Shown: in pieces, positions 22,883 to 46,924 of the stretch
Layout of the letters: every line of letters starts with the position of its first letter
Numbering within the stretch: the stretch's first letter is position 1
Origin: Ensifer adhaerens
GTDB taxonomy: Bacteria; Pseudomonadota; Alphaproteobacteria; Rhizobiales; Rhizobiaceae
Direction: 5' to 3'
Assembly: GCF_028993555.1 (NCBI RefSeq)
Contig: NZ_CP118610.1
Span: 3,777,001 to 3,841,000, forward strand
Length of the DNA: 64,000 nt
Position numbers and translations under genes: made by a program
The notes under the pieces: model-generated
Told to the model about the DNA's origin: nothing
Database searches by the model: none
What the model saw: only the letters and a program-made list of their open reading frames with translations

Positions 22883-24295
22883 TTATTTGCGGCGAATCAC
22901 CGCCGCGTAGAAGCCATCGAGCCCGCTCGCATAGGGAGCATTAAGCGGCAACATGGCCGGCGTGGTGCGCATTTCGCCGAGCGGCGTGATCGCGTCCTCC
23001 AGCCCCGGCCAATCCGCAGCGGAAATCGCAACGCGTTCATAGGCGGCGCCAGAACCGACCACTCGCTCGACCACCTCTTCGCCCTCGAGCGGATCGAGAG
23101 AGCAATTGGAAAAGACGACGACGCCGCCGGGCTTGACGACGGTGAGCGCATGGCGGAGCAGGCGCTCCTGCAAGGCGGCGAGTTTTGCGATATCCTCCGG
23201 CCCCTTGGTCCAGAGCACATCGGGGTGACGACGCGTCGTTCCGGTGGAAGAGCAGGGTGCGTCGAGCAAGGCCGCATCAAACAGCATGTCCGGCTGGAAG
23301 TCGGCCATGTTGACTTCCTTCGTATCCGCCTCCAGGCCAAGCCGCTTCAGATTGCCCTTCAACCGGCGCAAGCGGCTGCCGGACTGATCGAGCGCCGTCA
23401 CTTCGGCGCCGGCGAGGATGAGCTGAGCGGTCTTGCCGCCCGGTGCGGCACAGAGATCGACGACCCGCTTGCCGCTGAGATCGCCGAATAGCCGTGCCGG
23501 TATCGATGCGGCTGCATCCTGAACCCACCAGGCACCATCGTCGAATCCGGCTAAGGAAGGGATGGAGCCAGAGAATGGGCCGAGACGAACCGAGCCCGTC
23601 GGCAAGACGGTACCGCCCAGACGTTCGGCCCAGCTCACAGGTTCCGATTTGACCGATAGATCGATGGCCGCCGGTGTGAGTTGTGCTTCGGCGATCTGCT
23701 GGGCTTGTCCAGCGCCATAGCGGGCGACCAGGCGCTCGAAGAACCAGTCCGGCATCGCCGGCAAATCGCGCACGCTTTCGAGAATGGCATCCTTCTCGCG
23801 CGACAGGCGCCGAAGGACCGCATTCACGAGATTGGCAAAACGCCGATTGCGCGGATCCGCCTGCGCCTGTTCGACGGCAAGGTCGACGGCGGAATGATCA
23901 GGCACATCGAGATAAAGGATCTGCGCCGCCGCGACGGCAAGCACGTGATCAAGCGCACGCGCGCCCTCCGGCAAAGGCGTCTGCAGCAGAGAATTGATGG
24001 CCGCCTGGATGCGCGGCAGATGGCGAAGCGCTGAGTTCAGGATCGCCCGAGCCAGTGCGCGATCGGCCTCGTTGAGTTCGCGGTAGGCTGGGTTGCCGTG
24101 CTCGCTGTCGAGCATGCCGTCGAGCGACGTCTTGCGGTCGATGACTGCGGCAAGGATTTTAGCGGCGGCCTGGCGCGCTATCAGGCCCGGCTTCTCCAGC
24201 CCACGAGGCGCAGCGGCGGGCTTCTTCGTCTTCGCTGCGGCGCTGTTTCGGTGTGATCGTTTCGGGCGTGAATCGTTTTTGTTTTCTGCGGACAT
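22883..24295 (-). CDS. rsmB: 16S rRNA m5C methyltransferase, RsmB-like
   Basis: A 470-residue protein. The N-terminal NusB-like domain (about 30-170) is followed by the SAM-dependent methyltransferase domain with DLCAAPGGKTAQL (about 277) and the catalytic DAPCSSTGTTRRHPD (about 345). RsmB methylates C967 of 16S rRNA. ATG 24295 overlaps the htpX stop as TGATG, implying translational coupling. The LAGF near residue 250 is written TTA GCC GGA TTC, one copy of the repeated 12-mer. The N-terminal 35 residues are Lys/Pro-rich and probably disordered. Confidence 0.92.
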   Translation of the reverse strand: MSAENKNDSRPKRSHRNSAAAKTKKPAAAPRGLEKPGLIARQAAAKILAAVIDRKTSLDGMLDSEHGNPAYRELNEADRALARAILNSALRHLPRIQAAINSLLQTPLPEGARALDHVLAVAAAQILYLDVPDHSAVDLAVEQAQADPRNRRFANLVNAVLRRLSREKDAILESVRDLPAMPDWFFERLVARYGAGQAQQIAEAQLTPAAIDLSVKSEPVSWAERLGGTVLPTGSVRLGPFSGSIPSLAGFDDGAWWVQDAAASIPARLFGDLSGKRVVDLCAAPGGKTAQLILAGAEVTALDQSGSRLRRLKGNLKRLGLEADTKEVNMADFQPDMLFDAALLDAPCSSTGTTRRHPDVLWTKGPEDIAKLAALQERLLRHALTVVKPGGVVVFSNCSLDPLEGEEVVERVVGSGAAYERVAISAADWPGLEDAITPLGEMRTTPAMLPLNAPYASGLDGFYAAVIRRK

Positions 24296-25254
24296 CAGGA
24301 CCAGGGACCTTTGGGCGGTTCGGAACCACCGCGACCCCAACCGGTAGGAGGCACAGAGCGCGATTTGCGCACGGGATTATCAGCCCGAACCGGCGGCGTC
24401 GAGACCGAAGACATTTCCTGAGCCATCTGCTGCAGGGCCGCAATCCGGTTTTCGGTGTTCGGATGGGTCGAGAACAGATTGTCCATGCGCTCGCCGGAAA
24501 GCGGATTGATGATGAACATATGCGCTGTCGCCGGGTTGCGTTCGGCGTCGTCATTGTGAATCTGATGCGCGGCGCCGGCGATCTTCTGCAGCGCCGAAGC
24601 CAGTGCCATGGGCTTGCCGCAGATTTCGGCGCCGCGCCGGTCGGCCGAGTATTCGCGGGTGCGGCTGATCGCCATCTGCACCAGCATCGCCGCCAGCGGC
24701 GCCACGATCATGGCGACCAGCGTGCCGATGAAACCCAGTGGGTTGTTGTTTTCACGGTTGCCGCCGAAGAAGAAGGCAAAGTTGCCGAGCATCGAGATCG
24801 CCCCGGCAAGCGTCGCCGTCAGCGTCATCGTGAGGGTGTCACGGTTTTGGACGTGCGCGAGCTCGTGCGCCATGACCCCGGCGACTTCATCGTAGTTAAG
24901 CGCATGCAACAGGCCGGTGGAGGCGGCGACCGCGGCGTTTTCCGGGTTGCGGCCGGTGGCAAACGCATTCGGCTGCGGGCTGTCGATCACATAGACACGT
25001 GGCATCGGCAGGCCGGCATTTCGGGCAAGGTCGCGGACGATGCCGTAATACTCCGGCGCACTGCGCTCATCGACTTCCTGGGCGCGATACATGCGCAGGA
25101 CCATCTTGTCGGAGTTCCAGTAGGAGAAGAAGTTCATGCCGGCGGCCATGACGAAAGCGATCATCATGCCGCCACGTCCGCCGATGACGAAGCCCACCGC
25201 CATGCACAAGGCGGTCATGACTGCAAGCAGCATGGCGGTGCGGACAAGGTTCAT
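24295..25254 (-). CDS. htpX: Membrane zinc metalloprotease HtpX
   Basis: A 319-residue M48 family protease of inner-membrane quality control. It has N-terminal membrane helices, the zinc motif HELAH (about residues 126-130, within [14 protein letters not shown]) and a downstream E-x-x-A-D segment ([10 protein letters not shown]). The C-terminus is proline-rich and somewhat longer than in E. coli HtpX (293). The stop overlaps the rsmB start by one base. A parS-like site lies just upstream (25275). Confidence 0.95.
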
Positions 25255-25274
25255 CTAAGTCTCCGGATCGTCGA

Positions 25275-25290
25275 TGTTTCACGTGAATCA
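25275..25290. other. parS-like ParB-binding site
   Basis: TGTTTCACGTGAATCA matches the parS consensus TGTTTCACGTGAAACA at 15 of 16 positions. It is non-coding, 21 bases upstream of htpX. The identical 16-mer recurs at 43316. Confidence 0.75.
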
Positions 25291-25378
25291 GGGTTCCCGA
25301 CAGGGGAACGGCAACCTATATGATGGGTGCAAATGCCCAATTCTTCAATATTGATGCTCGAATCCGGATACCGTTCAT

Positions 25379-25579
25379 ATGCAGAACGACAATGACAACG
25401 CTCCCGATCGCCCGAAACGCCCCTTGCCGCCAGCGGCCATACGCGCGCTGAAGGAAGCCGAAGAGCGGCGTCAGGCGGAAATCAAGAAGGAATTGCCTCC
25501 GGAAATCGGCGGGCGCGGCGGTGAAGATCCTGCCCGTTACGGCGACTGGGAGATCAAGGGCAGGGCGATCGACTTCTGA
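25379..25579 (+). CDS. DUF1674 protein (SdhAF4-like succinate dehydrogenase assembly factor family)
   Basis: A 66-residue soluble protein. The C-terminal block GGEDPARYGDWEIKGRAIDF is the signature of DUF1674, which in eukaryotes is SdhAF4, a factor that helps flavinate SdhA. The N-terminal part is a charged helix. It is complete. The rhizobial protein's role in succinate dehydrogenase assembly is inferred from the family only. Confidence 0.85.
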   Translation: MQNDNDNAPDRPKRPLPPAAIRALKEAEERRQAEIKKELPPEIGGRGGEDPARYGDWEIKGRAIDF

Positions 25580-25707
25580 GTTTGGGGCTGCGAGCGGTCG
25601 GTCTTTTTAGCTGCGATCTGAATCCGGCTCACTAAGTCGTAATGTACGCAAAACGCCGCGCGTCGCGACGCCGAAAGTCTCTTGCGAAACTTGTTTACTC
25701 AGTCGAA

Positions 25708-25742
25708 ACGGCCGCTGCACATACGCAATGTGCAGCGGCCGT
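25708..25742 (-). terminator. Terminator of acsA
   Basis: 15-base perfect stem ACGGCCGCTGCACAT/ATGTGCAGCGGCCGT with a 5-base loop, right after the acsA stop on the minus strand and followed there by TTT. Confidence 0.85.
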
Positions 25743-25747
25743 TAATG

Positions 25748-27697
25748 TTAGGCCTTGTTCTGGCGGTTGGCGATCAGATCGTCGACGACAGCCGGATCGG
25801 CAAGCGTCGAAGTATCGCCGAGCGCGCCGAAATCGTCTTCGGCGATCTTGCGCAGGATACGCCGCATGATCTTGCCTGAGCGGGTCTTCGGCAGGCCCGG
25901 CGCAAACTGGATCTTGTCGGGCGTGGCGATCGGTCCGATTTCCGAACGCACGTGCTTCACCAGGGCAGCGCGGAGATCGTCGTTGCCGATTTCGCCGGCC
26001 ATCAGTGAGACATAGCAGTAGATGCCCTGACCCTTGATCGGATGCGGATAACCGACGACGGCGGCTTCCGAGACGAGGTGATGCGATACCAGCGCGGATT
26101 CGACTTCTGCCGTGCCGAGGCGGTGGCCGGAGACGTTGAGAACGTCGTCGACGCGACCGGTGATCCAGTAGTAGCCATCCTCATCGCGGCGGCAGCCGTC
26201 TCCGGTGAAATACTTGCCCTTGTAGGTGGCAAAGTAGGTCTGGCCGAAGCGCGCGTGATCGCCGTAGATCGTGCGCATCTGGCCCGGCCAACTGTCGGTG
26301 ATGCAGAGGTTGCCGTCAGCAGCGCCCTCGAGCACGTTGCCCTCATTGTCGACGAGCTGCGGCTGCACGCCGAAGAACGGCCGGGTGGCGGAACCGGGCT
26401 TGAGATCGGTCGCGCCCGGCAGCGGCGTAATCAGAATGCCGCCGGTCTCCGTCTGCCACCAGGTATCGACGATCGGCGACTTCTGTTCGCCGACGACGTT
26501 GTAGTACCATTCCCAGGCTTCCGGGTTGATCGGCTCACCGACCGAGCCGAGCAGGCGGAGCGACGAGCGCGAGGCGCGCTTGACGAAATCATCACCGGCA
26601 CCCATCAGCGAGCGAATCGCCGTCGGCGCCGTGTAGAAGACGTTGACCTTGTGCTTGTCGACCACTTCCCAGAAGCGTCCGGCATCCGGGAAATTCGGAA
26701 CACCTTCGAACATCACGGTCGTCGCGGCATTCGCGAGCGGGCCGTAGACGATATAGGAATGGCCCGTGACCCAGCCGACATCGGCCGTGCACCAGTAGAC
26801 CTCGCCGTCACGGTAGTCGAAGACATATTCATGCGTCATCGACGCGTAGACGAGGTAACCGCCGGTCGTGTGCAGCACGCCCTTCGGCTTGCCGGTCGAG
26901 CCCGAAGTATAGAGGATGAACAGCGGATCCTCCGCCTTCATCTTCGCCGGCTCGCAATGCGGCTTCACCGTGGCAATTTCCTGGTGGTACCAGAGGTCAC
27001 GACCTGGCGCCCAGGCGGTCTTGCCGCCGGTGCGGCGCACCACGAGCACCTTGTTGACGATGACATGCTGCTTGGCCGCGATATCGATCGCCGTGTCAGT
27101 GTTTTCCTTGAGCGGTACCGGCTTGCCGCCGCGCACGCCCTCATCGCAGGTGATGACGAAGGTGCTCTCGCAGTCGACGATACGGCCAGCAAGCGCGTCC
27201 GGCGAGAAACCGCCGAAGACGACCGAATGGATCGCGCCGATACGCGAGCAGGCGAGCATCGCATAGGCCGCTTCCGGGATCATGGGCATGTAGATGGTGA
27301 CGCGGTCGCCCTTCTTCACACCGTGCTTCTTCAGCACGTTTGCGAGGCGACAAACCTGCTCGTAAAGCTGGTTGTAGGTGATCTTCTTGTCGATATAGGG
27401 GTTGTCGCCCTCCCAGATGATCGCGGTCTTCTCGCCATGCGTCTTCAGGTGGCGGTCGATACAGTTGTAGGAGACGTTTGTCAGGCCATCTTCATACCAC
27501 TTGATCGAAACCTTGCCCTTGAACGAAGTGTTCTTGACCTTGGTATAAGGCTTGAACCAATCGATCCGTTTGCCGTGCTTGCCCCAGAACTTTGCCGGGT
27601 CCGAAACGCTCTCCTCATACCACTTCAGGTAAGTGGCATTGTCGAGCAGCGTCCGGCTCTTGGCAGACTTCAACACCGGATAGATCTTGGCGGACAT
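25748..27697 (-). CDS. acsA: Acetyl-CoA synthetase
   Basis: AcsA activates acetate with ATP and CoA via acetyl-AMP. The 649-residue protein has the AMP-binding loop [12 protein letters not shown] (about 261), WWQTETGG (about 415), the hinge region [18 protein letters not shown] and the C-terminal catalytic lysine in TRSGKIMRR (about 605), the site normally regulated by acetylation. ATG 27697 is preceded by GGGAGG at the ideal distance. It is divergent from trcR and ends in a strong terminator. Confidence 0.97.
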
Positions 27698-27819
27698 ATT
27701 TTCCTCCCTACGCATTCCTAGTGCGGCTCGCCACTCCCAGGGCCAGCCCGTTTCGCGGACATACATAGCAGGTCAAATGCCCGCCGCAATTAGACAAAAG
27801 GACATTTGGAACTGAAGAA

Positions 27820-27848
27820 TTGCAATTTTGAGACAAGGACGGTATAGA
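27820..27848 (+). promoter_or_regulatory. Predicted sigma70-type promoter of trcR
   Basis: TTGCAA (27820-27825), a 17-base spacer and TATAGA (27843-27848), about 75 bases before the trcR start in the acsA-trcR divergent region. Confidence 0.5.
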
Positions 27849-27924
27849 GGCCCACATTTCCCGGAAATCAGTGGTAGACTCCACGGCCCGCGACACCGGC
27901 GCGGCGGACAAAAGGACTATATCC

Positions 27925-28626
27925 ATGGCTCAGCAACTGCTTATGCCCAAGGCAACAGCCGTCTGGCTCGTTGACAATACCGCGCTGTCCTTCGACCAGA
28001 TCGCGCAGTTTTGCAAGCTGCACCCGCTTGAAGTAAAGGCGATCGCCGACGGTGAATCCGCGCAGGGCATCAAGGGCCTTGACCCGATTGCCACGGGCCA
28101 GCTTTCGCGTGACGAAATCGCTCGCGCAGAAGGAAACCCCAACCACAAGCTGAAGCTTTCCGAGCCGAAGGTCCGCGTCCCTGACTCGAAGCGCAAGGGT
28201 CCGCGCTACACGCCGGTTTCCAAGCGCCAGGATCGCCCGAACGCCATTCTCTGGCTGGTTCGCAACCATCCGGAGTTGAAGGACGCGCAGATTTCGCGTC
28301 TCGTCGGCACCACCAAGTCGACGATCGAGCAGATCCGTGAGCGTACCCACTGGAACTCCGCCAACCTGACGCCGATGGATCCGGTGACCCTCGGCCTGTG
28401 CTCGCAGATCGACCTCGACCTCGAAGTCGAACGCGCCTCCAAGGGCCGTCCGCTGCCGACGGCCGCCGAGCTCGGCGCGACGCTGGAATCGGCTCAGGAG
28501 ACCGAAAAGCTGGGCTTCAGCTACGAGCGCGAGGAAGAGAAGGAAATCGACGCCGATGCCGTCTTCGCCAAGCTCAAGTCGCTGAAGTCGGACCGCAAGG
28601 ACGAGGACGAAGACGATCACTACTGA
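27925..28626 (+). CDS. trcR: DUF1013 protein, cell-cycle transcriptional regulator TrcR family
   Basis: A 233-residue soluble protein of the DUF1013/TrcR family, found mainly in alphaproteobacteria. It starts MAQQLLMPKATAVWLVDNT, has a segment resembling a helix-turn-helix (LSFDQIAQFCKLHPLEVKAIAD, quoted in part) and a second one (RLVGTTKSTIEQIRER). The C-terminus is acidic (DEDEDDHY). ATG 27925 is chosen over the upstream in-frame start because the family begins here. A promoter is predicted at 27820. The regulatory role is taken from the family, not from this sequence. Confidence 0.9.
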   Translation: MAQQLLMPKATAVWLVDNTALSFDQIAQFCKLHPLEVKAIADGESAQGIKGLDPIATGQLSRDEIARAEGNPNHKLKLSEPKVRVPDSKRKGPRYTPVSKRQDRPNAILWLVRNHPELKDAQISRLVGTTKSTIEQIRERTHWNSANLTPMDPVTLGLCSQIDLDLEVERASKGRPLPTAAELGATLESAQETEKLGFSYEREEEKEIDADAVFAKLKSLKSDRKDEDEDDHY

Positions 28627-28644
28627 TCGCCGTCCAGCGCGATG

Positions 28645-28677
28645 AAAAAAGCCCGGATCGTCGATCCGGGCTTTTTT
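28645..28677. terminator. Bidirectional terminator between trcR and the ectC-like gene
   Basis: AAAAAAGCCCGGATCG and CGATCCGGGCTTTTTT arms: a strong stem flanked by A and T runs, so it can stop both convergent genes. It shares its stem sequence with the terminator at 10854. Confidence 0.9.
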
Positions 28678-28700
28678 GTTGGCCGATGTTCAATAGGTGT

Positions 28701-29087
28701 TCAGTAAGCCGAACCGGATGCATCATTGAGGTTGTGGCGCTCGGTCCCCTTGAGCGGCGGGTTGAAGATGCTGACGAGGATCAGGTCCTCGTCCTTGCCG
28801 CCGCGCAGATAGTGTTTGTCGTGCTGGTCGAGCACGTAGATGTCGCCCTTGTTGATCGGGAAGATCTTGCCCTGCATATCTTCGACCTCCCCGTGGCCGG
28901 CGATGCAGTAGCACGCCTCCAGATGATTGCGGTACTCCAGCAGCGACACCGTGCCGGCGCGCACCACTGTGTGGCATACGGTGAAGCCCATGCCATCCTT
29001 CTCGGTAAGCAGCCGATGGCTGGTGCCGCTGCCCCATTCGACGAAATGATCGGTTGCTTCGATCTGCTGCAGGCTGCGCACGAACAT
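28701..29087 (-). CDS. Stand-alone ectoine synthase-like cupin (EctC family)
   Basis: A 128-residue cupin. It matches EctC throughout: N-terminal [14 protein letters not shown], the metal-site glutamate in [13 protein letters not shown], the Tyr/His block [13 protein letters not shown] and the C-terminal [12 protein letters not shown]. EctC cyclises N-gamma-acetyl-diaminobutyrate to ectoine. No ectA, ectB or ectD is present within the window, so it is an orphan copy. It is divergent from a LysR regulator that may control it. It could act on imported intermediates, run hydrolytically, or have another small-molecule substrate. ATG 29087 fits the family start; 29099 is in frame. Confidence 0.85.
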
Positions 29088-29225
29088 GGGCCTCTCCATC
29101 TGTAAGGATTTCTAATGTTTTCTGGCGGGGCTTCCGCCCCATTGCCGTGACAGAACCAGTATCTGTTGACAGCGGCAGCCAATCAAACGACGATTCCTCA
29201 AGGCATTGATGAGGAAAACTTACAG

Positions 29226-30095
29226 ATGATCCTGCCACCACTCGGCATGCTGCGCGCCTTCGAAGCCGCGGCGCGCTTGGCAAGTTTCTCCCGCGCCGGC
29301 GACGAACTGCATGTGACGCATGCAGCCATCAGCCACCAGATCCGTCTGCTGGAGGAGTGGTTCGGCCGGCCGCTCTTCGTGCGGGAGAAGCGTGGCGTGC
29401 GGCTGGCAGCGGAGGCTGAGAGCCTGGCAGCGGCGCTGACCTCGGCATTCGAGCGCATCGCTGCGGAAACGGAGGTCCTACGACTGAATGCCAAGGCGCA
29501 AGTGAGCGTCGCCTGTATTCCCTCGATCGCCACCCGCTGGCTGATCCCGGCGCTCGGTGAATTTCTCGGCCGCCATCCCGAAGTCGACGTCAAGGTCGTC
29601 TACGCCATGGCCGAACAGCAATTGCGCGAAACCGGCTGCGACATCCTCATCACGCTCGGCGCCGATACGAGCGAAGGGACGCGGTCAGATCGACTGTTTT
29701 CGCGAATCAATCGGCCGGTTGCGAGCCCGCGCTACATCGAACGGAAAGGTGAGTTGAGGGCAGCGCAGGCGATCGCTTCCGCCGATCTGCTGCACGACGA
29801 GACAACCTCGCGCTGGCGCGACTGGTTCGCCCGGGCAGGGGTGGCGGCGGGACAAAACCTGCGGGGTCCGATCTTCCAGGACTTCAACCTGCTCGCCACG
29901 GCCGTCATCGCCGGCCATGGCGTCGCCCTTTGCCCGGTTGAGGTCTTTCGGCGTGAAATCGAGAGCGGCGACCTCGTGATACTTTCCGATATCGCCACTC
30001 TCGAAGACGAGAGCTACTTTCTCATCACCAAGACCGCATGCTCAAAGGCCGTGTCGGCCTTCAGCAACTGGTTTGCGACCGTTGTCAGGTCGTGA
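29226..30095 (+). CDS. LysR-family transcriptional regulator, GcvA-like
   Basis: A 289-residue LysR regulator. The N-terminal winged helix-turn-helix (FEAAARLASFSRAGDELHV) is followed by AAISHQIRLLEEWFGRPLF and a periplasmic-binding-fold effector domain. The AISHQIRxLE pattern and overall layout resemble the GcvA/AmpR branch. ATG 29226 follows GAGGAAAA; the TTG at 29166 is rejected. It is divergent from the ectC-like gene across 138 bases, the usual arrangement of a LysR gene and its target. Confidence 0.9.
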   Translation: MILPPLGMLRAFEAAARLASFSRAGDELHVTHAAISHQIRLLEEWFGRPLFVREKRGVRLAAEAESLAAALTSAFERIAAETEVLRLNAKAQVSVACIPSIATRWLIPALGEFLGRHPEVDVKVVYAMAEQQLRETGCDILITLGADTSEGTRSDRLFSRINRPVASPRYIERKGELRAAQAIASADLLHDETTSRWRDWFARAGVAAGQNLRGPIFQDFNLLATAVIAGHGVALCPVEVFRREIESGDLVILSDIATLEDESYFLITKTACSKAVSAFSNWFATVVRS

Positions 30096-30140
30096 TGCGA
30101 GCGCCGTGGCGCTCACATCATAAGCCGGCTCAGCAAGCCT

Positions 30141-32048: not shown

Positions 32049-32159
32049 TTCCGTTCCTCCCTATGCATTTGCCGGACATGTCCGGCCTCCTCGTGCACAA
32101 GGATAGGCTAATGAGAGATGAGGGGAACCCCGACGAAAGCGTAATGCGACGAATTGGCG

Positions 32160-32819
32160 TTACCGCGCGCCGAAAATGGCCGAACCGACCCGCACGCTGG
32201 TAGCGCCAAACTGCACGGCCGTCTCGAAATCGCCGGACATCCCCATCGACAGCTTCTGGAGCTTGCAGGCGGCGGCCAGCTTGGCGAGCAGGGCAAAATG
32301 CGGGCCGGGATTTTCCTCGACCGGCGGAATGCACATCAGCCCCTCGATCTGCAGCCCCAGTTCCACGCGGCAAAGATCGACGAAGGCAGCTGTCTCTTCC
32401 GGTGGGATACCGGCCTTCTGCGGCTCGAGCCCGGTATTGACCTGAACGTAGAGCCTGAGGTGCCGTCCCTGTTTCTGCATTTCCGCTGCAAGCGCTCGGG
32501 CAATCTTCTCCCGGTCAACGGTTTCGATGACATCGAAAAGGGCAACCGCTTCGGCGGCCTTGTTCGATTGCAGCGGACCAATCAGGTGGAGTTCGAGACC
32601 GGATGTCTCTGCTTTCAGTTCCGGCCACTTGCCCTGCGCTTCCTGCACGCGGTTCTCACCGAAGACACGCTGGCCCGCCGCGATCACGGGACGGATCGCA
32701 TCAGCATCGAAGGTCTTGGATACCGCGACCAGCGTGACAGCGCCCTTGGCAGGATCGGCAGACCTTTCCGCCGCCTGAATCCGGCTCACGACATCCTGCA
32801 ACCGCTCTTGAACTTCCAT
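32160..32819 (-). CDS. YggS/PROSC family PLP-binding protein
   Basis: A 219-residue single-domain alanine-racemase-fold protein involved in pyridoxal phosphate homeostasis. The PLP lysine is in TLVAVSKTF (about residue 34). Other blocks are FGENRVQEAQGKW, LHLIGPLQSNKA and LSMGMSGDFETAVQFGATSVRVGSAIFG. ATG 32819 is preceded by GGAGAGCAGG. The frame upstream to 32948 has no family similarity. It is divergent from leuS. Confidence 0.92.
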   Translation of the reverse strand: MEVQERLQDVVSRIQAAERSADPAKGAVTLVAVSKTFDADAIRPVIAAGQRVFGENRVQEAQGKWPELKAETSGLELHLIGPLQSNKAAEAVALFDVIETVDREKIARALAAEMQKQGRHLRLYVQVNTGLEPQKAGIPPEETAAFVDLCRVELGLQIEGLMCIPPVEENPGPHFALLAKLAAACKLQKLSMGMSGDFETAVQFGATSVRVGSAIFGAR

Positions 32820-33043
32820 GGACCTGCTCTCCGACACGGGATTTCCCAACCACTGACCGAGCGGCTTAGGCAAAGTTGAGCCGGTTGCCAAGGCCACTGC
32901 CACACCGGCAGGCTCAAATCCGCCAAAGTCTCGCGGCAAACCCTCCAAAAACTTGACCGTCAGGCGGTTTCGTGGTGAAGGTCACCCCAACTATCATGAG
33001 GCGCTCCCTATGCGCCGCAGAACTTCCGGAACATCGAAAAGAT

Positions 33044-35671: not shown

Positions 35672-36191
35672 TAGAGCTGGCTCCCGCGTCCGGTCGTTTC
35701 CGGTGGTGGCAGGTGTTCTTTTGCTGGCCGCGCTCGCCGGCTGCCAGGTCAGGCCGCTCTATTCCGATCCTGGCGGCACATCGACGGCACTGGCGGCGAT
35801 CGAGATTTCCGATGCCGACGACCGCGTCGAGCAGGAAGTCCGCAACGCTTTGATCTTCCTGGTGGCAGGCGGGCAGGGCGAACCGGTGAACCCGCAGTAT
35901 CACCTGTCGCTTGAGGTCACGACCCGCGCCATGGGCGTGCTCTATGATCAGAACAAGGACCGCGTCGACCGCGCCAGCGCCGGTCGCATTGTCGTCAAGG
36001 CGGACTACAATCTGACGAAGATCGGTACGGGTGAGACAATCAAGTCCGGCAACCGTACAGCGGTCGCGCTTGTCGACTTCCCGGTCCAGGAATTTGCCAA
36101 GGTGCGTGCCGTTCGCGACGGCGAAAACCGCGCTGCAAAGGAACTGGCCGAGCTGATCCGGGCTGATATCGCCGCGGCCCTCAGCCGCTAG
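35658..36191 (+). CDS. lptE: LPS-assembly lipoprotein LptE
   Basis: A 177-residue outer-membrane lipoprotein. It has a signal peptide with the lipobox LAG-C ([14 protein letters not shown], Cys at about residue 27) followed by the family-typical VRPLY. LptE plugs LptD and delivers LPS to the cell surface. The leuS-lptE-holA order is conserved in many proteobacteria, supporting the call despite the low conservation of the family. It overlaps leuS by 14 bases with AGAGGA before the ATG, and holA starts 11 bases after its stop. Confidence 0.88.
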
Positions 36192-36202
36192 TCGGTGTCG
36201 GG

Positions 36203-37237
36203 ATGAGCGAAGTCAAGTCGCACGAATTCGACTCCTTCCTCCAGAAGTCCGCCGGAGTCTACCGGTTGTTCATTCTCTACGGGCCCGATCGCGGGCTCGT
36301 GTCCGAACGTGCATCCGCCATCGCTTCGCGCTGCGGCGTTCCGTTGGATGATCCCTTTTCGGTATTGAAGCTCGATGTCAGCGAACTGGCGCAATCGCCG
36401 GGTCGGCTGCTCGACGAGGTCAATTCCATCGGCCTCTTCGGCGGTGAAAAGCTCGTCTGGGTGCGGGGAGCGGCCAACGAAAAATCACTCGTCGACGCAT
36501 TGCAGCTTCTCGCCGCCGAACCGCCGGTCGGAAGCTACGTGATTGTCGAAGCCGGTGACCTGAAGAAGGGATCAGCACTTCGCAAGATCGGCGAGACGGC
36601 CCGCTCTGTCGCCTGTATCGCCTGCTACAGTGACGACGTTCGCGGCCTGCAGGCGCTGATAGACAAAGAGCTTGGCGACGAGAAGCTTGGAATCACACCG
36701 GCTGCCCGTGCGCGTCTGGTGGAGGCTCTCGGTGGTGATCGCCTGGCATCCCGCAACGAACTGCGCAAGTTAACCCTTTATTGCCGTGGCAAGACGGCCG
36801 TCGACGAAGAGGATGTGCTCGACATTGTCGGCGACGCCAGCGCCATTTCCGTGGATGACGCGGTCGACGCAGTGTTGAAGGGGGATCTCGACGGGCTGCT
36901 GCACGCAATGCAGAAGATCACCACGTCGAAGACGCCGGCGTTTCTCGTGCTCCAGGCTTGCCTCCGACAATTTCAGCAACTCGACGTGATGCGCGCCGAA
37001 ATGGATACCAGTCGTCAGCAGGCGGGGCAGGTGATTGCAACGCTCGGCCGAGGTTTGCATTTTCGGCGCAAGCCGATTGTCGAAGCTGCGCTGAAACAGT
37101 GGACGGCGCCGGCGATACGCCGTGAACTCAACCGCCTTCAGACGACGATCTTCCAGAGCCGCAGTCGCGCAAGCCTCGAAGAAAGCCTGGTCCTGCAGAA
37201 CCTCATGGCAATAGCGGTGCAATCCGCACGGCGTTGA
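36203..37237 (+). CDS. holA: DNA polymerase III delta subunit
   Basis: HolA, 344 residues, opens the beta clamp in the clamp loader. The N-terminal YRLFILYGPDRGLVSERA (a degenerate P-loop region), the LFGGEKLVWVRG block (about 75-86) and the C-terminal helical domain with RASLEESLVLQNL fit the family. It is the last gene of leuS-lptE-holA and converges with parB. Confidence 0.93.
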   Translation: MSEVKSHEFDSFLQKSAGVYRLFILYGPDRGLVSERASAIASRCGVPLDDPFSVLKLDVSELAQSPGRLLDEVNSIGLFGGEKLVWVRGAANEKSLVDALQLLAAEPPVGSYVIVEAGDLKKGSALRKIGETARSVACIACYSDDVRGLQALIDKELGDEKLGITPAARARLVEALGGDRLASRNELRKLTLYCRGKTAVDEEDVLDIVGDASAISVDDAVDAVLKGDLDGLLHAMQKITTSKTPAFLVLQACLRQFQQLDVMRAEMDTSRQQAGQVIATLGRGLHFRRKPIVEAALKQWTAPAIRRELNRLQTTIFQSRSRASLEESLVLQNLMAIAVQSARR

Positions 37238-37364
37238 TGCACCAGCGAAATCCCCTCCGCTGTCATTCATTTTCAGAAACATTTGTAGGCAAATTCCCCG
37301 ACACGGAAGGAGCCCGCTGACCGGGTCTGGTCGCGAAGAAGAGGTAGATAAATCAATAATTTAA

Positions 37365-37390
37365 GGCGCGCCTTGTGTCCAAGACGCGCC
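37365..37390 (-). terminator. Hairpin downstream of parB
   Basis: GGCGCG/CGCGCC with an inner CTT/AAG pair and a 6-base loop. On the minus strand it is followed by an AT-rich stretch, a plausible parB terminator. Confidence 0.5.
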
Positions 37391-37424
37391 CCTCGATGGT
37401 TCTCAAAATGCAGCTTTTAGGCTC

Positions 37425-38315
37425 TCAGCGGCGCTCGAGCAGCCGGCAAATTTCCTCGAGCTGATCGAGCGTCTTGTAGGCGATGCGGAGATGACCGCCG
37501 GACGCCTTGTGGTTGACGGTGACCTCGAGACCAAGGCTGTCCGACAGGGTGCGTTCCAGCGCCAGCGTGTCCGCATCCTTTTCGTCGCGGCGTGCCGTCT
37601 TGCCGAAACTCGGGTCGTTCTGCGCGCGGATATCGTTCTGGGCGATGCGCTCCGCATCGCGCACCGAAAGCCCCTTGGCGACGATCGTACGGGCCAATGT
37701 CGCCGGATCCGATGTTGGAATCAGCGCCCGCGCATGACCGGCGGAAAGCGTGCCTTCCGACAGCATGTCGCGCACCGGTTCTGGCAGCTTCAGCAGACGC
37801 AGGCTGTTGGCGACATGGCTGCGGCTCTTGCCGATGATTTCGCCGAGATCGTTCTGCGTATAGCCGTGCTCGGCGATCAGTTGTTCGTAGCCGAGCGCCT
37901 CGTCGAGCGGGTTGAGATCCGAACGCTGAACGTTTTCGACGATCGCGATTTCGAGAGCGGTGCGATCGTCAACGTCACGGATGATCACCGGAATTTCGGT
38001 GAATCCGGCTAACTGTGCTGCCCGCCAGCGACGTTCGCCAGCGATAATCTCGAATCGATCGGCGCCGATCGTGCGGGCGACAACGGGCTGAACAATGCCG
38101 TGTTGGCGAATTGAATTGGCAAGGTCCTGAAGTTCGGCCTCGTCGAACTGCCGGCGCGGATTGCGCGGGTTGCGCGAAACAAACTCGATCGGCACCCGCC
38201 GGTCCGGATTGACCGGGGCAGGGGCCGATGCACCCGCTTGCAACGGTTGATCCATCTCGCCGATCAATGCGGCCAGTCCGCGACCAAGCCGTCTCTTCGA
38301 GCTATCGTCGTTCAT
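37425..38315 (-). CDS. parB: Chromosome-partitioning protein ParB
   Basis: ParB, 296 residues, is the CTP-dependent clamp that loads at parS and spreads. Visible are the N-terminal GRGLAALIGEM (the ParA-contact region), the CTP/arginine motif GERRWRAA (about 92-99), the helix-turn-helix region with YTQNDLGEIIGKSRSHVANSL (quoted in family terms) at about 150-175, and a C-terminal dimerisation domain. It lies 35 bases downstream of parA, as an operon. LAGF just after the arginine motif is encoded TTA GCC GGA TTC, another copy of the 12-mer. Candidate parS sites surround it. Confidence 0.97.
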   Translation of the reverse strand: MNDDSSKRRLGRGLAALIGEMDQPLQAGASAPAPVNPDRRVPIEFVSRNPRNPRRQFDEAELQDLANSIRQHGIVQPVVARTIGADRFEIIAGERRWRAAQLAGFTEIPVIIRDVDDRTALEIAIVENVQRSDLNPLDEALGYEQLIAEHGYTQNDLGEIIGKSRSHVANSLRLLKLPEPVRDMLSEGTLSAGHARALIPTSDPATLARTIVAKGLSVRDAERIAQNDIRAQNDPSFGKTARRDEKDADTLALERTLSDSLGLEVTVNHKASGGHLRIAYKTLDQLEEICRLLERR

Positions 38316-38350
38316 ATCGTCACCCGACTTAAATTACGCTACCGAAATGA

Positions 38351-39145
38351 TTATGCAGCCTTGCGCTGCCGTTCGCGTTGAATCACTTCCGATGCCAACT
38401 GTAGGTACGCCTGGCTTCCTGCGCATTTCAGATCATAGAGGATCGCCGGTTTGCCATAGGACGGCGCCTCGGAAACACGAACGTTGCGCGGAATAAGCGT
38501 ATGATAGACCTTATCCCCAAGATGGGTCCGGACGTCACTGACGACCTGTTGCGCAAGGTTATTGCGCGAATCGAACATCGTCAGAACGATACCCTGTATA
38601 TCCAGCGACGGGTTCACCGACCGGCGGACTTGGTCTACGGTTTCCAGCAGCTGGCTCAGACCTTCGAGGGCAAAGAACTCACACTGCAACGGTACCAGCA
38701 CGGAATGCGCCGCGGCCATGGCATTCATTGTCAACAGATTGAACGACGGCGGGCAATCGACGAGCACATAGGAATATTCCATCGCAGCAGGGCTGACCAA
38801 AGCCTTGCGCAGTCGGAAAACCCGGTCCGGCTCCTGCGAAATCTCCATTTCGACGCCGAGAAGGTCCATGGTCGAAGGCACGATTGAGAGGTTCGGAACC
38901 GCGGTTTGCTGCGCGATCTCACCGATCCCGTGCGACCCCATCATCAGTTCGTAGGACGAGAGATTTCTGTCGCGCCGTTGAATGCCCAAACCCGTGCTCG
39001 CGTTGCCCTGCGGGTCGAGGTCGACAATGAGGACACGCTCGCCGATTGCCGCGAGCGCCGTCGCCAGATTGATGGCGGTCGTCGTTTTACCAACTCCGCC
39101 CTTCTGATTTGCGATTGTGATGATCCGATTTCTTGCGCCAAACAT
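38351..39145 (-). CDS. parA: Chromosome-partitioning ATPase ParA (Soj)
   Basis: A 264-residue deviant-Walker ATPase that drives origin segregation. The Walker A KGGVGKTT occupies residues 15-22 with the signature lysine, followed by DLDPQGNASTGLG and the Walker B-like VDCPPS. It has no N-terminal DNA-binding extension, so it is the chromosomal rather than plasmid RepA type. It starts 15 bases after rsmG ends, in the order rsmG-parA-parB. Confidence 0.97.
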   Translation of the reverse strand: MFGARNRIITIANQKGGVGKTTTAINLATALAAIGERVLIVDLDPQGNASTGLGIQRRDRNLSSYELMMGSHGIGEIAQQTAVPNLSIVPSTMDLLGVEMEISQEPDRVFRLRKALVSPAAMEYSYVLVDCPPSFNLLTMNAMAAAHSVLVPLQCEFFALEGLSQLLETVDQVRRSVNPSLDIQGIVLTMFDSRNNLAQQVVSDVRTHLGDKVYHTLIPRNVRVSEAPSYGKPAILYDLKCAGSQAYLQLASEVIQRERQRKAA

Positions 39146-39160
39146 ATTTCCGCTCGCCGA

Positions 39161-39802
39161 TCACTGAACCTTGCGTGATAGATTTGCGATCTCGAGCACA
39201 ACAGAGTCCGGCTCGACGACGCTTGGATGTTTTACCAGATCGAACTGGTAGCGGCCAATGGCTTTATCGATCTCGCGCTGGTAATCCCGCCCTTTGTGGA
39301 AATAGGCGACCGTCTTATGCTCGTCAGACAGTAACCAAGGAGCCGAGTAGTCGAGCAACAGCGTCAAATCGGCCAAAGCGCGCGCCGAAACCGCATCCGC
39401 TTGTGGAATTGCTTTGCCGGCTTCTTCGATCCGAATCGGATAGACGGAACCGCGTGCACCTGTTTCTGCCAGCGCGACTCGCAAGAACGCAGCCTTTTTA
39501 TTGTTGCTCTCGACGAGATGCACCCAACCGTCGGCGAATTCCGATAGATAGATCGCTGTGATGATACCTGGGAAGCCGCCACCGCTGCCGAGGTCAACCC
39601 AGGTCTTTGGCTTGGGCGACAATTGCACCAGCTGCAGGCTGTCGACGATATGGCGGCGCCACAGATCCTCGATCGTCGACGGCGCTACGAGATTGATCGA
39701 CTTCGCCCATTTTTGAAAGAGACGAGCGAAATGCTCCAGCCGTTCATTCGTTTCACGTGAAACACGCAGTCCGTTCAACATATCGATTGGACTCGTTTTC
39801 AT
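39161..39802 (-). CDS. rsmG: 16S rRNA m7G527 methyltransferase
   Basis: RsmG (GidB), 213 residues, methylates G527 of 16S rRNA. The SAM motif [11 protein letters not shown] lies at about residues 72-82. The start overlaps the mnmG stop by 4 bases. Near the N-terminus the peptide V-S-R-E-T is encoded by a parS-like 16-mer (39749-39764), so the gene carries a candidate ParB site in its coding sequence. Confidence 0.95.
39749..39764. other. parS-like site inside rsmG
   Basis: CGTTTCACGTGAAACA matches the parS consensus at 15 of 16 positions with an intact CACGTG core. It is 0.6 kb upstream of parA on the coding strand. Confidence 0.88.
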
Positions 39803-41682
39803 TGTGCACTTGCCTTTTCTTCCCGTTCTACGGTTCCGTTCTGACGTTTCAACCAGGCAAGGATCAGTGACGCGGCAGCCGGCGTCATGCTGTCCACCTT
39901 CATCACCTGAGCCAGATTGCGCGGTGCCTGCTGCTTCAGCTTCTGCTTCAACTCATTGGACAATCCGGAGAGCTTGTCAAAGTCAAAGCCGTCAGGGATG
40001 ACCAAATTCTCCTCGCGACGAATGCCGGCAATATCCGCCGCCTGCCGGTCCATATACACGGCGTAGGCGGCATCAATTTCCAGGCCCTCAACCACCCGCG
40101 CGCCTATCGACGATAGCTCCGGCCAAATTGGCATCAGGGCAGAAATCGATTGATCCGGATAGGAAAGGATCTCGAAGGCGGTGCGCCGCTGACCATCCTG
40201 GTTCAGCTTCAGACCATGGCGATTGCCTTCCGCCGGCGTCACCGAAAGACTCTTCAGCAGCTGACGTCCGTCATCGAACTGCGCCCGCCAGTCGACAAAG
40301 CGGGCACGACGCGCATCTGAAATACAGCCGAGTTCCATCGCCAATGGTGTCAGACGCGCATCGGCATTGTCCGCGCGGAGCGACAGCCGATACTCGGCAC
40401 GAGAGGTGAACATGCGATAGGGCTCGGTGATGCCACGCGACGTCAAGTCGTCGATCATGACGCCGATATAGGAGTTGGTGCGGCTGAAGATCACTTCCGG
40501 CCGGTCGGTCGCTGACAATGCCGCATTCAATCCGGCGACCAGGCCCTGCGCGCCCGCTTCCTCATAACCTGTCGTCCCGTTGATCTGCCCCGCCAAGAAC
40601 AGGCCGGGCATTTTCCGCACCGCCAGCGTCGCATTCAATTCGCGCGGATCCACATGATCATACTCGATCGCATAGCCGGGCTGCAGGATCGTCACATTCG
40701 CCAATCCAGGGATCGTGCGAATGAACGCCTCCTGGATGTCGGCGGGCAACGACGTCGAGATTCCGTTTGGATAGATGGTATCATCATCCAAACCTTCCGG
40801 CTCCAAGAAGATCTGGTGACCGTCACGCTCGCCAAAGCGCACGATCTTGTCTTCGATCGACGGGCAATAGCGCGGACCGACGCCTTCGATCTGCCCCGAA
40901 TACATGGCTGATTTGCCGATATTGTCAGCAATGATCTTGTGCGTGGCTTCGGTCGTGCGGGTTACACCGCAATCAATCTGGCGGTTCAGAATGTGGTCGG
41001 TCATGAAGGAGAACGGTACCGGATCCTCATCGGGACCTTGGCGGCCGACTCTGTCCCAGTCGATCGTGCGCCCGTCCAGGCGCGCCGGCGTGCCGGTCTT
41101 CAGACGACCGAGCTTTAGGCCGTAACGTAGCAATGTCCCGGAAAGACCAACGGAAGGCTCTTCCCCGACACGGCCGGCGGGAATCTTCTGGTCGCCAATA
41201 TGGATCAGCCCCTTCAAAAAGGTGCCGGTGGTCAAAACCACGGACTTGGATGCAAAGGTCCTGCCATCCTTCATGACGACACCGCCAACCTTGCCGTCAG
41301 CCTCGATCAAGTCGAAGGCGTCACCCTCGATCACCGTCAAGTTGGCAATGGCGCTAATCTCGCGCTGCATGGCTTCGCGATAGAGGCGTCGGTCGGCCTG
41401 CGTGCGCGGACCGCGGACCGCCGGGCCCTTGCGACGATTGAGCAGGCGAAACTGAATTCCGCCGGCATCCGCCACCCGACCCATCAGGCCATCCATCGCG
41501 TCGATCTCGCGCACGAGATGGCCCTTGCCCAATCCACCGATCGCCGGGTTGCAGGACATCACGCCGATCGTCGACGCCTTGTGGGTGATCAACGCCGTAT
41601 TGGCGCCGAGGCGCGCTGCCGCGGCTGCCGCTTCGCAACCCGCATGGCCGCCGCCAATGACGATAACGTCATACTGGTTCAT
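39799..41682 (-). CDS. mnmG: tRNA uridine-34 carboxymethylaminomethyl synthase, FAD subunit
   Basis: MnmG (GidA), 627 residues, works with MnmE to make cmnm5U34 in tRNAs. The FAD-binding [10 protein letters not shown] lies at residues 11-20, [19 protein letters not shown] near 50-65 and [13 protein letters not shown] near 420. Length matches the family. It overlaps rsmG and is separated from mnmE by a 100-base gap holding a parS-like site. Confidence 0.97.
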
Positions 41683-41725
41683 TGTTCATATCTCCATGCC
41701 AGCACACCCCGGCACCGGCGCGAAT

Positions 41726-41741
41726 CGTTTCACGTGAAACA
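41726..41741. other. parS-like site between mnmE and mnmG
   Basis: CGTTTCACGTGAAACA, 15 of 16, non-coding. The same 16-mer is found at 39749. A DnaA-box-like GTATCCACA (8/9) lies 31 bases further on (41772-41780). Confidence 0.88.
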
Positions 41742-41782
41742 CAACGAAGGACTCGCAAACGTTGTATCGTTGTATCCACAGC

Positions 41783-43111
41783 CTATTTTCCGATACAGAA
41801 TTCGGAAAATATCACATCCAAAAGGTTCTCGACATCCACCCGGCCGGTAATCCGGCCAATTGCGTCTCCGGCGATGCGGAGTTGCTCAGCTTGGATATCC
41901 AGACCAAAACGCTCTCCCGCCAAACTCTCTTCGATTGCCCGAAGAGCCTGCCGCAGGTTGTCGACATGACGGCGACGTGATGGCAAGGCGAGGGACGTTC
42001 GGCCGCTAAGGTCTGGGAGATGGGCGGTGATCAAATCCAAAAGGCGATCCATGCCTTCACCCGTCCTCGTCGAGATCAAGACATCCGCCTTGTCCAGGGA
42101 CCATCGTCGATCATCCCGATCTACCTTGGTCGCCACCCGCAACACAGGCGTCGCGTCAGACGCGATATTCGACAGAGATTCAAATCCGCGCACTGTCTCC
42201 GACAAGAGAAGGATCAGATCCGCTCGTTCGATAACTTCTCGCGCACGACGGATACCCTCCTGTTCAACGCGTTCCTCGGTTTCACGTAAACCCGCAGTAT
42301 CGTAGAGTTTTACAGAGAATCCGGCTAAGGAAAGGTCAACTGAGAGCACGTCACGCGTCGTACCCGCAATTTCCGTGACAATAGCAATATCTCTCTGCGC
42401 CAATGCATTGAGCAAGCTCGACTTTCCCGCGTTCGGCTCTCCGGCGATGACGATCTTCAATCCATCCCGGATGATCTCGGCGATCGGCGCATCGGCGATA
42501 TGTGCAGCAATCTCCTGCGCGAGCTTTGACATGTCCTGCCAGATGCGTTCGCTCACCGAGCCTGGTACGTCATCCTCGTCGGCAAAGTCGAGTTCTGCTT
42601 CGATCATCGCCCGCGCATGGGTGAGACGCTTCGCCCAGGCCGCATAGACCTTCGATTGCCCGCCACCAGAATGCTCGATCGCAAGGCGACGCTGCATTTC
42701 GGTTTCAGCGACAATCAGGTCAGAGAGCCCCTCGACTTCCACCAGGTCCAGTTTTCCATTCTGGAACGCCCGCCGCGAAAACTCACCGGCCTCGGCATGG
42801 CGCAATCCATCGAACTTGGCGAGTTCTTCGAGCAGGGCATTCACCGCAGCCCGGCCACCGTGGATCTGAAACTCTGCACAGTCTTCGCCCGTAAAGGACG
42901 CGGGCCCACGGAAATAGAGAACGAGGCCGCTATCAATCACGAGACCGTTGCGAGACCGAATCGATTTGAGCGTCGCTGTCCGCGGTGGCGGGACATCGCC
43001 ACACAATGTCCGAAGCACCGTCGCCGTGTGCTGACCGCTAACACGCACGACCGCGACACCAGCGGGCAGGGCACCGCTGGAAAGCGCATATACCGTTTGC
43101 GTTGCAGTCAT
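41783..43111 (-). CDS. mnmE: tRNA modification GTPase MnmE
   Basis: MnmE (TrmE), 442 residues, is the GTPase partner of MnmG. The N-terminal formyl-THF-binding domain, the G domain with GEPNAGKSSL (about 219-228), DTAGLRETEE, and the C-terminal Cys in FCIGK are all present. LAGF at about 260 uses TTA GCC GGA TTC (12-mer copy at 42317). The last codons form a TTTTCCGA/TCGGAAAA hairpin (41786-41809). Confidence 0.96.
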   Translation of the reverse strand: MTATQTVYALSSGALPAGVAVVRVSGQHTATVLRTLCGDVPPPRTATLKSIRSRNGLVIDSGLVLYFRGPASFTGEDCAEFQIHGGRAAVNALLEELAKFDGLRHAEAGEFSRRAFQNGKLDLVEVEGLSDLIVAETEMQRRLAIEHSGGGQSKVYAAWAKRLTHARAMIEAELDFADEDDVPGSVSERIWQDMSKLAQEIAAHIADAPIAEIIRDGLKIVIAGEPNAGKSSLLNALAQRDIAIVTEIAGTTRDVLSVDLSLAGFSVKLYDTAGLRETEERVEQEGIRRAREVIERADLILLLSETVRGFESLSNIASDATPVLRVATKVDRDDRRWSLDKADVLISTRTGEGMDRLLDLITAHLPDLSGRTSLALPSRRRHVDNLRQALRAIEESLAGERFGLDIQAEQLRIAGDAIGRITGRVDVENLLDVIFSEFCIGK

Positions 43112-43315
43112 TGGCTCACCTGGAGGACCGCAGAGGCGGCATTGCCTCAGCTGATCGAAACAATGGGGATCGTCGAAGTTCCGGACCTGATCGTTCTACT
43201 GTGCGGAGCATGCTCACGCCGGATGAAAACGGTATCTCAAAGGGTCGGGGAGCTTATGCCGAAACAGCGTTGAAAGATCAAGGTCCCACGACGCGCATGT
43301 TTCATGGCATCGCTG

Positions 43316-43331
43316 TGTTTCACGTGAATCA
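43316..43331. other. parS-like site between rho and mnmE
   Basis: TGTTTCACGTGAATCA, 15 of 16, identical to the site at 25275, non-coding. Confidence 0.85.
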
Positions 43332-43404
43332 GCGAAAGCGATTGGGAGTTCCGGCTGCGTTTTTTAAGGACCGGATCGTTGCGAAACCGAAACGGTGCCT
43401 TAGG

Positions 43405-43416
43405 GAATCCGGCTAA
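43405..43416 (+). repeat. Non-coding copy of the GAATCCGGCTAA 12-mer
   Basis: GAATCCGGCTAA also occurs at 23543 (rsmB), 38001 (parB) and 42317 (mnmE), always on the plus strand. The 10-base core GAATCCGGCT occurs additionally at 25620, 32777 and 60713. Function unknown. Each copy contains a GATTC (GANTC) site on the other strand. Confidence 0.7.
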
Positions 43417-43486: not shown

Positions 43487-44752
43487 TTACGTGTTCATCG
43501 AGTCGAAGAAGTCGCCGTTGTTCTTCGTCTGCTTGAGTTTGTCGATGAGGAACTCGATCGCATCTGTCGTGCCCATCGGCGCCAGAATACGGCGGAGCAC
43601 GAAGATCTTCTGCAGATCCTGGCGCGGCACCAGCAGGTCTTCCTTACGCGTGCCGGACTTGAGGATGTCCATCGCCGGGAAGATGCGCTTGTCGGCGACC
43701 TTGCGGTCGAGGACGATTTCGGAGTTACCGGTACCCTTGAACTCTTCGAAGATGACTTCGTCCATGCGGCTGCCGGTATCAATCAGCGCCGTCGCGATGA
43801 TCGTCAGCGAACCACCTTCTTCGATGTTGCGGGCCGCACCGAAGAAGCGCTTCGGACGCTGCAGCGCATTGGCGTCGACACCACCGGTCAGGACCTTGCC
43901 CGATGACGGAACGACCGTGTTGTAGGCGCGGCCAAGGCGGGTGATCGAGTCGAGCAGGATGACGACGTCGCGGCCATGTTCGACAAGGCGCTTGGCCTTC
44001 TCGATCACCATTTCGGCGACCTGAACGTGGCGCGTCGCCGGTTCGTCGAAGGTCGAGGAAACGACTTCACCCTTCACCGAGCGCTGCATGTCCGTCACTT
44101 CTTCCGGACGTTCGTCGATCAGAAGAACGATCAGGTAGCATTCCGGATGATTGGCGGTGATCGAATGAGCGATGTTCTGCAGCAGAACGGTCTTGCCGGT
44201 TCGCGGCGGTGCGACGATCAGACCACGCTGGCCTTTGCCGAGCGGCGCCACCAGGTCGATGACGCGGGCCGAGAGATCCTTCGACGTCGGAACGTCAAGT
44301 TCCATCTTGAAGCGCTCGTTCGGATAGAGCGGCGTCAGGTTGTCGAAGTGAACCTTGTGACGGATCTTTTCCGGATCGTCGAAATTGATGGTGTTGACCT
44401 TGAGGAGGGCGAAGTAGCGCTCGCCTTCTTTCGGTCCGCGGATCGGGCCCTCAACCGTGTCGCCGGTCTTCAGAGAGAAGCGGCGGATCTGGGAAGGCGA
44501 GATGTAGATGTCGTCAGGGCCGGGGAGGTAGTTCGCATTCGCCGAGCGGAGAAAGCCGAAACCATCCTGCAGCACTTCAACGACGCCTTCACCGATGATC
44601 TCGATATCCTGGGCCGCGAGCATCTTGAGGATTGCAAACATCAGCTCCTGCTTGCGCATCGTGCTGGCGTTTTCCACCTCGAGCTCCTCGGCAAAGGCGA
44701 GCAGATCGGTCGGCGTCTTGTTCTTGAGTTCTTGTAGCTTCATTTCAGCCAT
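43487..44752 (-). CDS. rho: Transcription termination factor Rho
   Basis: Rho, 421 residues, is a hexameric RNA-dependent ATPase. The N-terminal helix bundle ([19 protein letters not shown]), the OB-fold RNA-binding domain with GFGFLRS (about 65), the Walker [12 protein letters not shown] (about 178), the Walker [15 protein letters not shown] and the R-loop region are visible. Length matches E. coli Rho (419). An ATG three codons later (44743) is possible. Confidence 0.97.
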
Positions 44753-46517: not shown

Positions 46518-46924
46518 GGATCATCTCTCCCAATTTAAAATCAAAGATATTTAGAAGGTTTCTATTTCTTAGAGTCGGTGGGTATCAAGGATTAAAACAA
46601 CCCACCAACTTGTCCACGGCCGCCGATCGTGACGAGCCGCGATGGGGGAACGTCCAGGCAATCTGGGACAATAGCGCAGAGTGGCGAATAAAGGCATTTG
46701 GATTCAGACCATTAGCCGATCCGCGTTTTCGATTGCACCTGTGGACAAGCCGTTGATACGCGTGACACTTTGTCATCGTCGCGAGTCTTTTCCACATTTG
46801 CCGCGGAGCAGTTTCCGCGACTGCGCCAATTGTGAATAACTCGGCTGTTTTCCACTTGCCCGGATCGGCACCGCGTCGTTAGCTGTCTTTCATCCCGGCT
46901 TATCAACAGCACCAGGAGAATTGC
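46518..46924. other. Chromosomal replication origin (oriC) candidate
   Basis: A 407-base non-coding region between hemE and the divergent ppsR, the position of the Caulobacter origin. DnaA-box-like 9-mers (consensus TTATCCACA): TTGTCCACG 46610-46618 (7/9), TTGTCCACA reversed 46740-46748 (8/9), TTTTCCACA 46788-46796 (8/9), TTATTCACA reversed 46831-46839 (8/9), TTTTCCACT 46848-46856 (7/9), TTATCAACA 46900-46908 (8/9). GANTC (CcrM) sites: 46572, 46701, 46783. An AT-rich unwinding-type stretch lies at 46531-46574. Genes diverge on both sides. Confidence 0.9.
46531..46574. other. AT-rich segment of oriC (candidate unwinding element)
   Basis: About 44 bases dominated by A and T (starting CAATTTAAAATCAAAGATAT) at the hemE side of the origin region, the only strongly AT-rich stretch there. 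Confidence 0.65.

Follow-up and report, generated by a model that had tools for sequence, protein, structure and literature searches.

The origin region of the main chromosome of Ensifer adhaerens raises the question of why a 12-base word, GAATCCGGCTAA (the 12-mer), recurs there on a single strand, and what its copies might do. The stretch analyzed, called the window, comprises 64,000 nucleotides (C1:3777001-3841000) of contig C1, the 4.25-Mb main chromosome in an assembly (G000) of 7.77 Mb and four contigs. A preliminary description had reported exact copies at 23543, 38001, 42317 and 43405 and near copies at 25620, 32777 and 60713; all seven were recovered, the latter three as one-mismatch copies, and all are on the + strand. 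Shuffling gave a mean of 0.25 matches against these seven (100 shuffles, none reaching 7), and the copies at 23543 and 42317 do share an extension, both continuing with GGAA. Counting both strands of the whole genome gave a result far from chance: six exact copies, all + and all within C1:3755215-3864961 (110 kb spanning oriC), compared with no match anywhere in the genome for the same word read backward, our control. The core GAATCCGGCT occurs 36 times (27 +, 9 -; control 3), and the 10 copies near oriC, in C1:3755215-3891853 (137 kb), are all on the + strand. The other 26 comprise 17 + and 9 - copies, with 12 on C1 (8 +, 4 -), 12 on C2 (7 +, 5 -) and 2 on C3. Allowing two mismatches, strand bias was lost genome-wide (227 + and 210 -; control 153 and 172).

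The preliminary description placed the repeats between 23543 and 43416. That cluster is real, but the array extends beyond both ends of it, from about -21785 to +114853 in window coordinates, around the following landmarks.

46540..46924, no strand: putative oriC, in the gap separating hemE from a kinase/pyrophosphorylase gene, with DnaA-box-like sequences seen by eye
43487..44752, - strand: rho, which adjoins oriC and was the landmark for orienting relatives
39750..39763, no strand: parS-like palindrome GTTTCACGTGAAAC, context only, outside the 12-mer array
41727..41740, no strand: parS-like palindrome GTTTCACGTGAAAC, context only, outside the 12-mer array

The cumulative GC-skew minimum, computed over a 300-kb stretch, falls near window position 43059, 3-4 kb from the inferred oriC. 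Copies of the 12-mer are irregularly spaced, the nearest lying ~3.3 kb from the oriC midpoint, and none is found within oriC in this genome. Those to the left and those to the right of oriC are on the same + strand, with no switch at the origin. This constancy, which the preliminary description did not mention, is the most unusual property of the array.

Within the genus, each of the 16 genomes compared holds 4 to 6 copies of GAATCCGGCTAA, all on one reported strand in 10 genomes and with one opposite copy in 6. In G002, G005, G008 and G011 the odd-strand copy lies on a separate contig of arbitrary orientation; in G003 and G014 it shares a contig with the cluster but is at least 0.8 Mb away from it. 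Across the Rhizobiaceae, 54 of 151 genomes hold a total of 99 copies, compared with 7 for the backward-read control; many of these genomes are drafts, and whereas 84 of the 99 copies share a contig with rho, 15 do not and hence cannot be assigned an orientation. Less than 60 kb from the rho start, 71 copies are on the strand opposite to rho and 1 is on the same strand (36 genomes, with G122 holding the exception), and the 71 fall on both sides of oriC, 42 to the left and 29 to the right. Farther out, opposite- and same-strand copies number 4 and 0 at 60-100 kb, 1 and 3 at 100-200 kb, and 3 and 1 beyond. Other families of the order gave a copy in 2 of 24 genomes, with 1 control match. The array belongs to part of the Rhizobiaceae and fades ~70-100 kb from oriC.

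We also pooled 17 genomes of 17 genera, selected for holding the 12-mer, so that the counts show strand bias and not frequency. By strand, the counts were 71 to 1 for the 10-mer and 40 to 0 for the 12-mer, and 43 of the 71 10-mers are left and 28 right of oriC. Between genera the positions of the sites vary whereas the strand is constant, which is a stronger argument than P values, because related genomes are not independent and P values overstate the certainty. When enriched strand-biased 10-mers were ranked without bias toward any word, motif words were top-ranked in all five Ensifer-group origin regions; GAATCCGGCT came first in G018 (8 to 0) and joint first in G029 (5 to 0), and the eight-word lists for G022, G024, G025, G030, G031 and G034 lack it. 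The word GAMTCCGGCTMA gave 37 copies in six other genomes, compared with 8 in the control. In G012 all eight copies share a strand and lie in the origin region; G096 has six on one strand, five within 56 kb of rho and one ~140 kb off; G100 has six near the origin on one strand and one elsewhere on the opposite strand; G007 has eight that share a strand in the origin region and three on C2 on the opposite one; G176 has three on one strand, one of them ~130 kb from rho; and G123 has one adjoining rho and one far off. Taken together, these data show an array located around oriC, locked to one strand through it and maintained across genera.

Some further words were seen in the same comparisons. 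GANTCCGGAT in G034 (5 to 0, P 0.03) and GANTCAGGC in G030 (7 to 0, P 0.008), with P values uncorrected for many tests, could represent drifted forms of the motif where the canonical array is lacking. The origin region of G147 holds two canonical copies and three of GAATCCGGCAAA, the latter all on the strand of the array; GAATCCGGCAAA is possibly a lineage-specific variant.

A fixed direction might be read by a machine that moves along DNA (SMC, a ParB clamp or a translocase), for which the sites would act as a polar barrier, a loader or a pointer, and mirror an origin whose layout is asymmetric, parAB and the strong parS-like sites being on one flank. The two GTTTCACGTGAAAC palindromes do lie left of oriC, as does parAB, and the direction is constant relative to gene order across genera, beyond any single genome. 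The 12-mers, however, are found on both sides, up to ~70 kb away, so that a departing machine would meet opposite orientations on the two arms, and the conserved direction could be plain inheritance of a strand choice. We regard this explanation as unlikely.

Chance, codon use or a shared Leu-Ala-Gly-Phe (LAGF) peptide might also generate a recurrent word, and the copies in rsmB, parB and mnmE do read TTA GCC GGA TTC and encode LAGF, as originally described. The peptide is confined to those three genes: the copy at 32777 is read in another frame (VSRI), as happens in two genes in all, and that at 60713 in sense, as ESGY followed by a stop, whereas others sit outside conserved open reading frames. 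Because the frames vary and non-coding copies exist, the motif is a feature of the DNA and not of a protein, and LAGF is not what its copies have in common. With the genome-wide distribution, the excess over control in the family and the same strand at differing positions across genera also refuting it, we give this explanation practically no credence.

The upkeep of individual sites was judged in four other Ensifer-group genomes, and the share of 12-mers within 300 bp that were also kept (surroundings) was used for comparison.

23543..23554, + strand: 12-mer, antisense in rsmB, LAGF frame; kept in 4/4, surroundings 0.2%
25620..25631, + strand: variant GAATCCGGCTCA, no overlapping open reading frame of at least 60 amino acids; kept in 4/4, surroundings 5.0%
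32777..32788, + strand: variant GAATCCGGCTCA, antisense in a gene with an alanine-racemase N domain, VSRI frame; kept in 3/4, surroundings 24%
38001..38012, + strand: 12-mer, antisense in parB, LAGF frame; kept in 2/4, surroundings 22%
42317..42328, + strand: 12-mer, antisense in mnmE, LAGF frame; kept in 4/4, surroundings 0%
43405..43416, + strand: 12-mer, non-coding, in the mnmE-rho gap; kept in 4/4, surroundings 6.8%; recurs in other genera with unrelated flanks
60713..60724, + strand: variant GAATCCGGCTAC, in sense, covering the last codons of an HpcH/HpaI-family gene (ESGY stop), beyond oriC; kept in 4/4, surroundings 1.6%
-21785, + strand: copy outside the window; kept in 4/4, surroundings 3.8%
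87950, + strand: copy outside the window; kept in 3/4, surroundings 1.7%
114853, + strand: copy outside the window; kept in 1/4, surroundings 66%

Relatives keep the DNA itself, including non-coding sequence with unrelated flanks. In an alignment of mnmE-rho gaps (24 rows from 23 loci, L169 and G012 being the same contig), the 12 columns of the motif are 92-100% identical, compared with 29-62% in the flanking columns; the rows were selected by motif pattern, which accounts for part of the invariance but not for the variable flanks and distances. G100 and G141 carry GACTCCGGCTAA in this gap. The 12-mer is a conserved island in unrelated flanks between mnmE and rho. The recurrence of a copy in this gap, near the end of rho, might indicate a regulatory or RNA-level element, such as a promoter, a transcription-factor site, part of a terminator or a small-RNA target. 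The distance from the gap copy to the rho end nevertheless ranges from 4 to 223 nt (known for 15 rows), the other copies include antisense, sense and non-coding ones, and single-strand folding of four copies gave no common structure. As such an element would not predict a single strand across both arms either, we consider it very improbable.

The consensus, GA(A/C)TCCGGCT(A/C)A, is asymmetric and contains the CcrM site GANTC. One-base variants with the tail were counted on the + and - strands of 21 genomes (the pooled 17 and four array-free genomes). At the N of GANTC (position 3), A to C gave 8 and 0, A to G 0 and 1, and A to T 0 and 0. The fixed GANTC positions 1, 2, 4 and 5 summed to 6 and 2, and positions 6-10 to 35 and 5; position 10 gave 23 and 5 of the latter, an excess that is partly one conserved coding site recurring in several genomes. 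This substitution pattern fits a putative requirement for GANTC. Beside the sites, there is a weak preference for G, A and A/T at positions 14-16, and CTGAG is enriched at distances of up to 100 bp, in no fixed position (near 17 of 60 de-duplicated sites, compared with 12 of 264 control stretches); a second conserved element was considered and rejected.

Sites of this kind might titrate or sense the dosage of a replication regulator, in the manner of initiator-binding sites, with orientation incidental. Sites near the origin double early in S phase, and a passage of PMC11711613 describes the RctB iterons of Vibrio cholerae chromosome 2 as 12-bp repeats with an adenine-methylation site whose methylation is required for binding. 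Those iterons are packed closely and at regular intervals within the origin, whereas the 12-mers are irregular and dispersed over more than 100 kb, and oriC itself has no copy here. Titration also leaves unexplained why 71 of 72 copies are on one strand, and we judge it a poor candidate, less probable than a directional machine.

The internal CcrM site, pointed out in the preliminary description, and the clustering around oriC both hold, and with them we lean, by a small degree, toward an array of ~6-10 oriented putative sites for one sequence-specific protein of the origin domain (~70 kb either side of oriC on the main chromosome), which would most likely handle newly replicated origins, by anchoring or segregation. 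In this scheme a protein would read the 12-mer and sense the CcrM methylation state of its internal GANTC. After replication, the sites of one sister would all keep the old methyl mark on the + strand and those of the other on the - strand. Because orientation is uniform, the mark would be on the same strand at every site of a given sister, and the array could tell sisters apart; and because fork-related signals switch at oriC and strand identity does not, the array would report chromosome strand identity. A strand-sensing reader would then treat sister origins differently through most of S phase, until CcrM acts. According to passages of PMC8725594, chromosomal GANTC methylation in growing E. 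meliloti increases from ori to ter, from 0.71 to 0.99, which its authors read as late, cell-cycle-regulated CcrM, and the origin is the least methylated DNA in growing Ensifer. That the array goes as far as marking sister identity, with a strand-sensitive reader bound on one sister and helping to set the old-pole as opposed to the moving origin, is a suggestion we hold doubtful.

GcrA or a GcrA-like protein is a candidate reader. Caulobacter GcrA protects ctrAP1 when the plus strand is methylated, whereas methylation of the minus strand alone gives no protection, and according to the authors GcrA may be bound at only one of two replicated loci; S. meliloti GcrA is also stimulated by methylation, with a different asymmetry (passages of PMC3667746). 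GcrA-CcrM sites thus resemble the 12-mers in being based on GANTC and, at that one promoter, in hemi-methylation being read strand-specifically, but they are known for promoter regulation, whereas the 12-mers are mostly in genes, strand-locked and different from the Caulobacter GcrA motif discussed below.

Several observations weigh against the proposed explanation. Constraint at positions 6 and 7 is as tight as at GANTC, and the N accepts A or C only and not G or T, so that recognition of the bases by themselves could account for the GANTC pattern. Visible constraint is not on every copy: those at 32777, 38001 and 114853 are kept no better than their surroundings in the Ensifer group, and the exact word is absent from 97 of the 151 family genomes. 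The Caulobacter GcrA motif YGAKTCK, as given in a passage of PMC8725594, is matched by the 12-mer on neither strand when compared by eye; the N is A or C on the + strand where K needs G or T, and the base preceding GATTC on the - strand is G and not Y. All 14 genomes tested, 10 bearing the array and 4 without it, have GcrA and a CcrM-type RAMA domain, and since the four array-free genomes have both too, these genes fail to explain who has the array. The earlier proposal of a site for a chromosome-organizing or replication protein is borne out as to clustering, conservation and the CcrM site, and neither of the two outcomes named as fatal to it, chance-level counts in the genome and loss of the DNA in relatives that keep LAGF, was obtained, whereas protein binding, methylation dependence and the protein's identity and function are what we infer.

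To our knowledge, oriented chromosome motifs (KOPS, AIMS, Chi and Ter) track replication and reverse polarity at the origin, and sites close to the origin (parS and RAM) are palindromic. Being origin-proximal, asymmetric and non-switching, the 12-mer may stand apart from known kinds, although its job might prove a familiar one, such as anchoring. Like the parS sites bound by ParB, it is a sequence-specific, origin-proximal element of the main chromosome, and parS-like sites occur in the same region, but parS is palindromic (GTTTCACGTGAAAC here), whereas the 12-mer is asymmetric, strand-locked and unrelated in sequence. The RAM sites of Bacillus RacA are likewise origin-proximal, and their protein ties the origin to the pole (a passage of PMC9239152); Bacillus is of a different phylum, and RAM sites are palindromic. 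KOPS (GGGNAGGG), which a passage of PMC13342612 describes as abundant along replicons with a polarity switch at dif, are also short, asymmetric and oriented, but the 12-mer differs in sequence, is confined to the origin and keeps the same polarity on both arms. AIMS, 8-mers on leading strands that are stronger near the terminus (a passage of PMC5993296), are also strand-biased chromosomal words under selection, whereas the 12-mer is origin-proximal and independent of the leading strand. Positioning of the origin in Agrobacterium depends on old-pole PodJ and new-pole PopZ, and further anchoring proteins are allowed for in the passage concerned (PMC9239152). The titles and passages returned by our literature search contained no description of such a motif; the 12-mer itself was absent from the papers searched, and its complement turned up in two pneumococcal assay papers. 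A defined 12-bp bait could expose a missing reader, and the array makes discrimination of bacterial sister chromosomes by hemi-methylation directly testable.

Among 22 proteins scanned against Pfam there was no convincing reader, and two were DNA-binding regulators, one of the TrcR family and one with a Cro/C1-type helix-turn-helix. A guess at the reader from oriC-near genes common to array-bearing relatives was also abandoned, as the open reading frames looked ordinary. The TrcR-family gene (PF06242, transcriptional cell cycle regulator, E 1.6e-67) lies at window 27871-28626 on the + strand, ~19 kb from oriC, and the small Cro/C1-type protein is encoded at 54479-54856 on the + strand, just upstream of gyrB; comparison of origin regions showed the open reading frame of the latter to be kept in all relatives included, array-bearing (9 of 9) and array-poor (5 of 5) alike. 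Other repeated words in the region include AAAGCCCGGATCG, with four occurrences in the window, two per strand, and CCGGATCGTCGA, with five, and TTCCGGGTT is strand-biased, 8 to 0 with 0.5 expected, in the 160-kb origin region of this genome.

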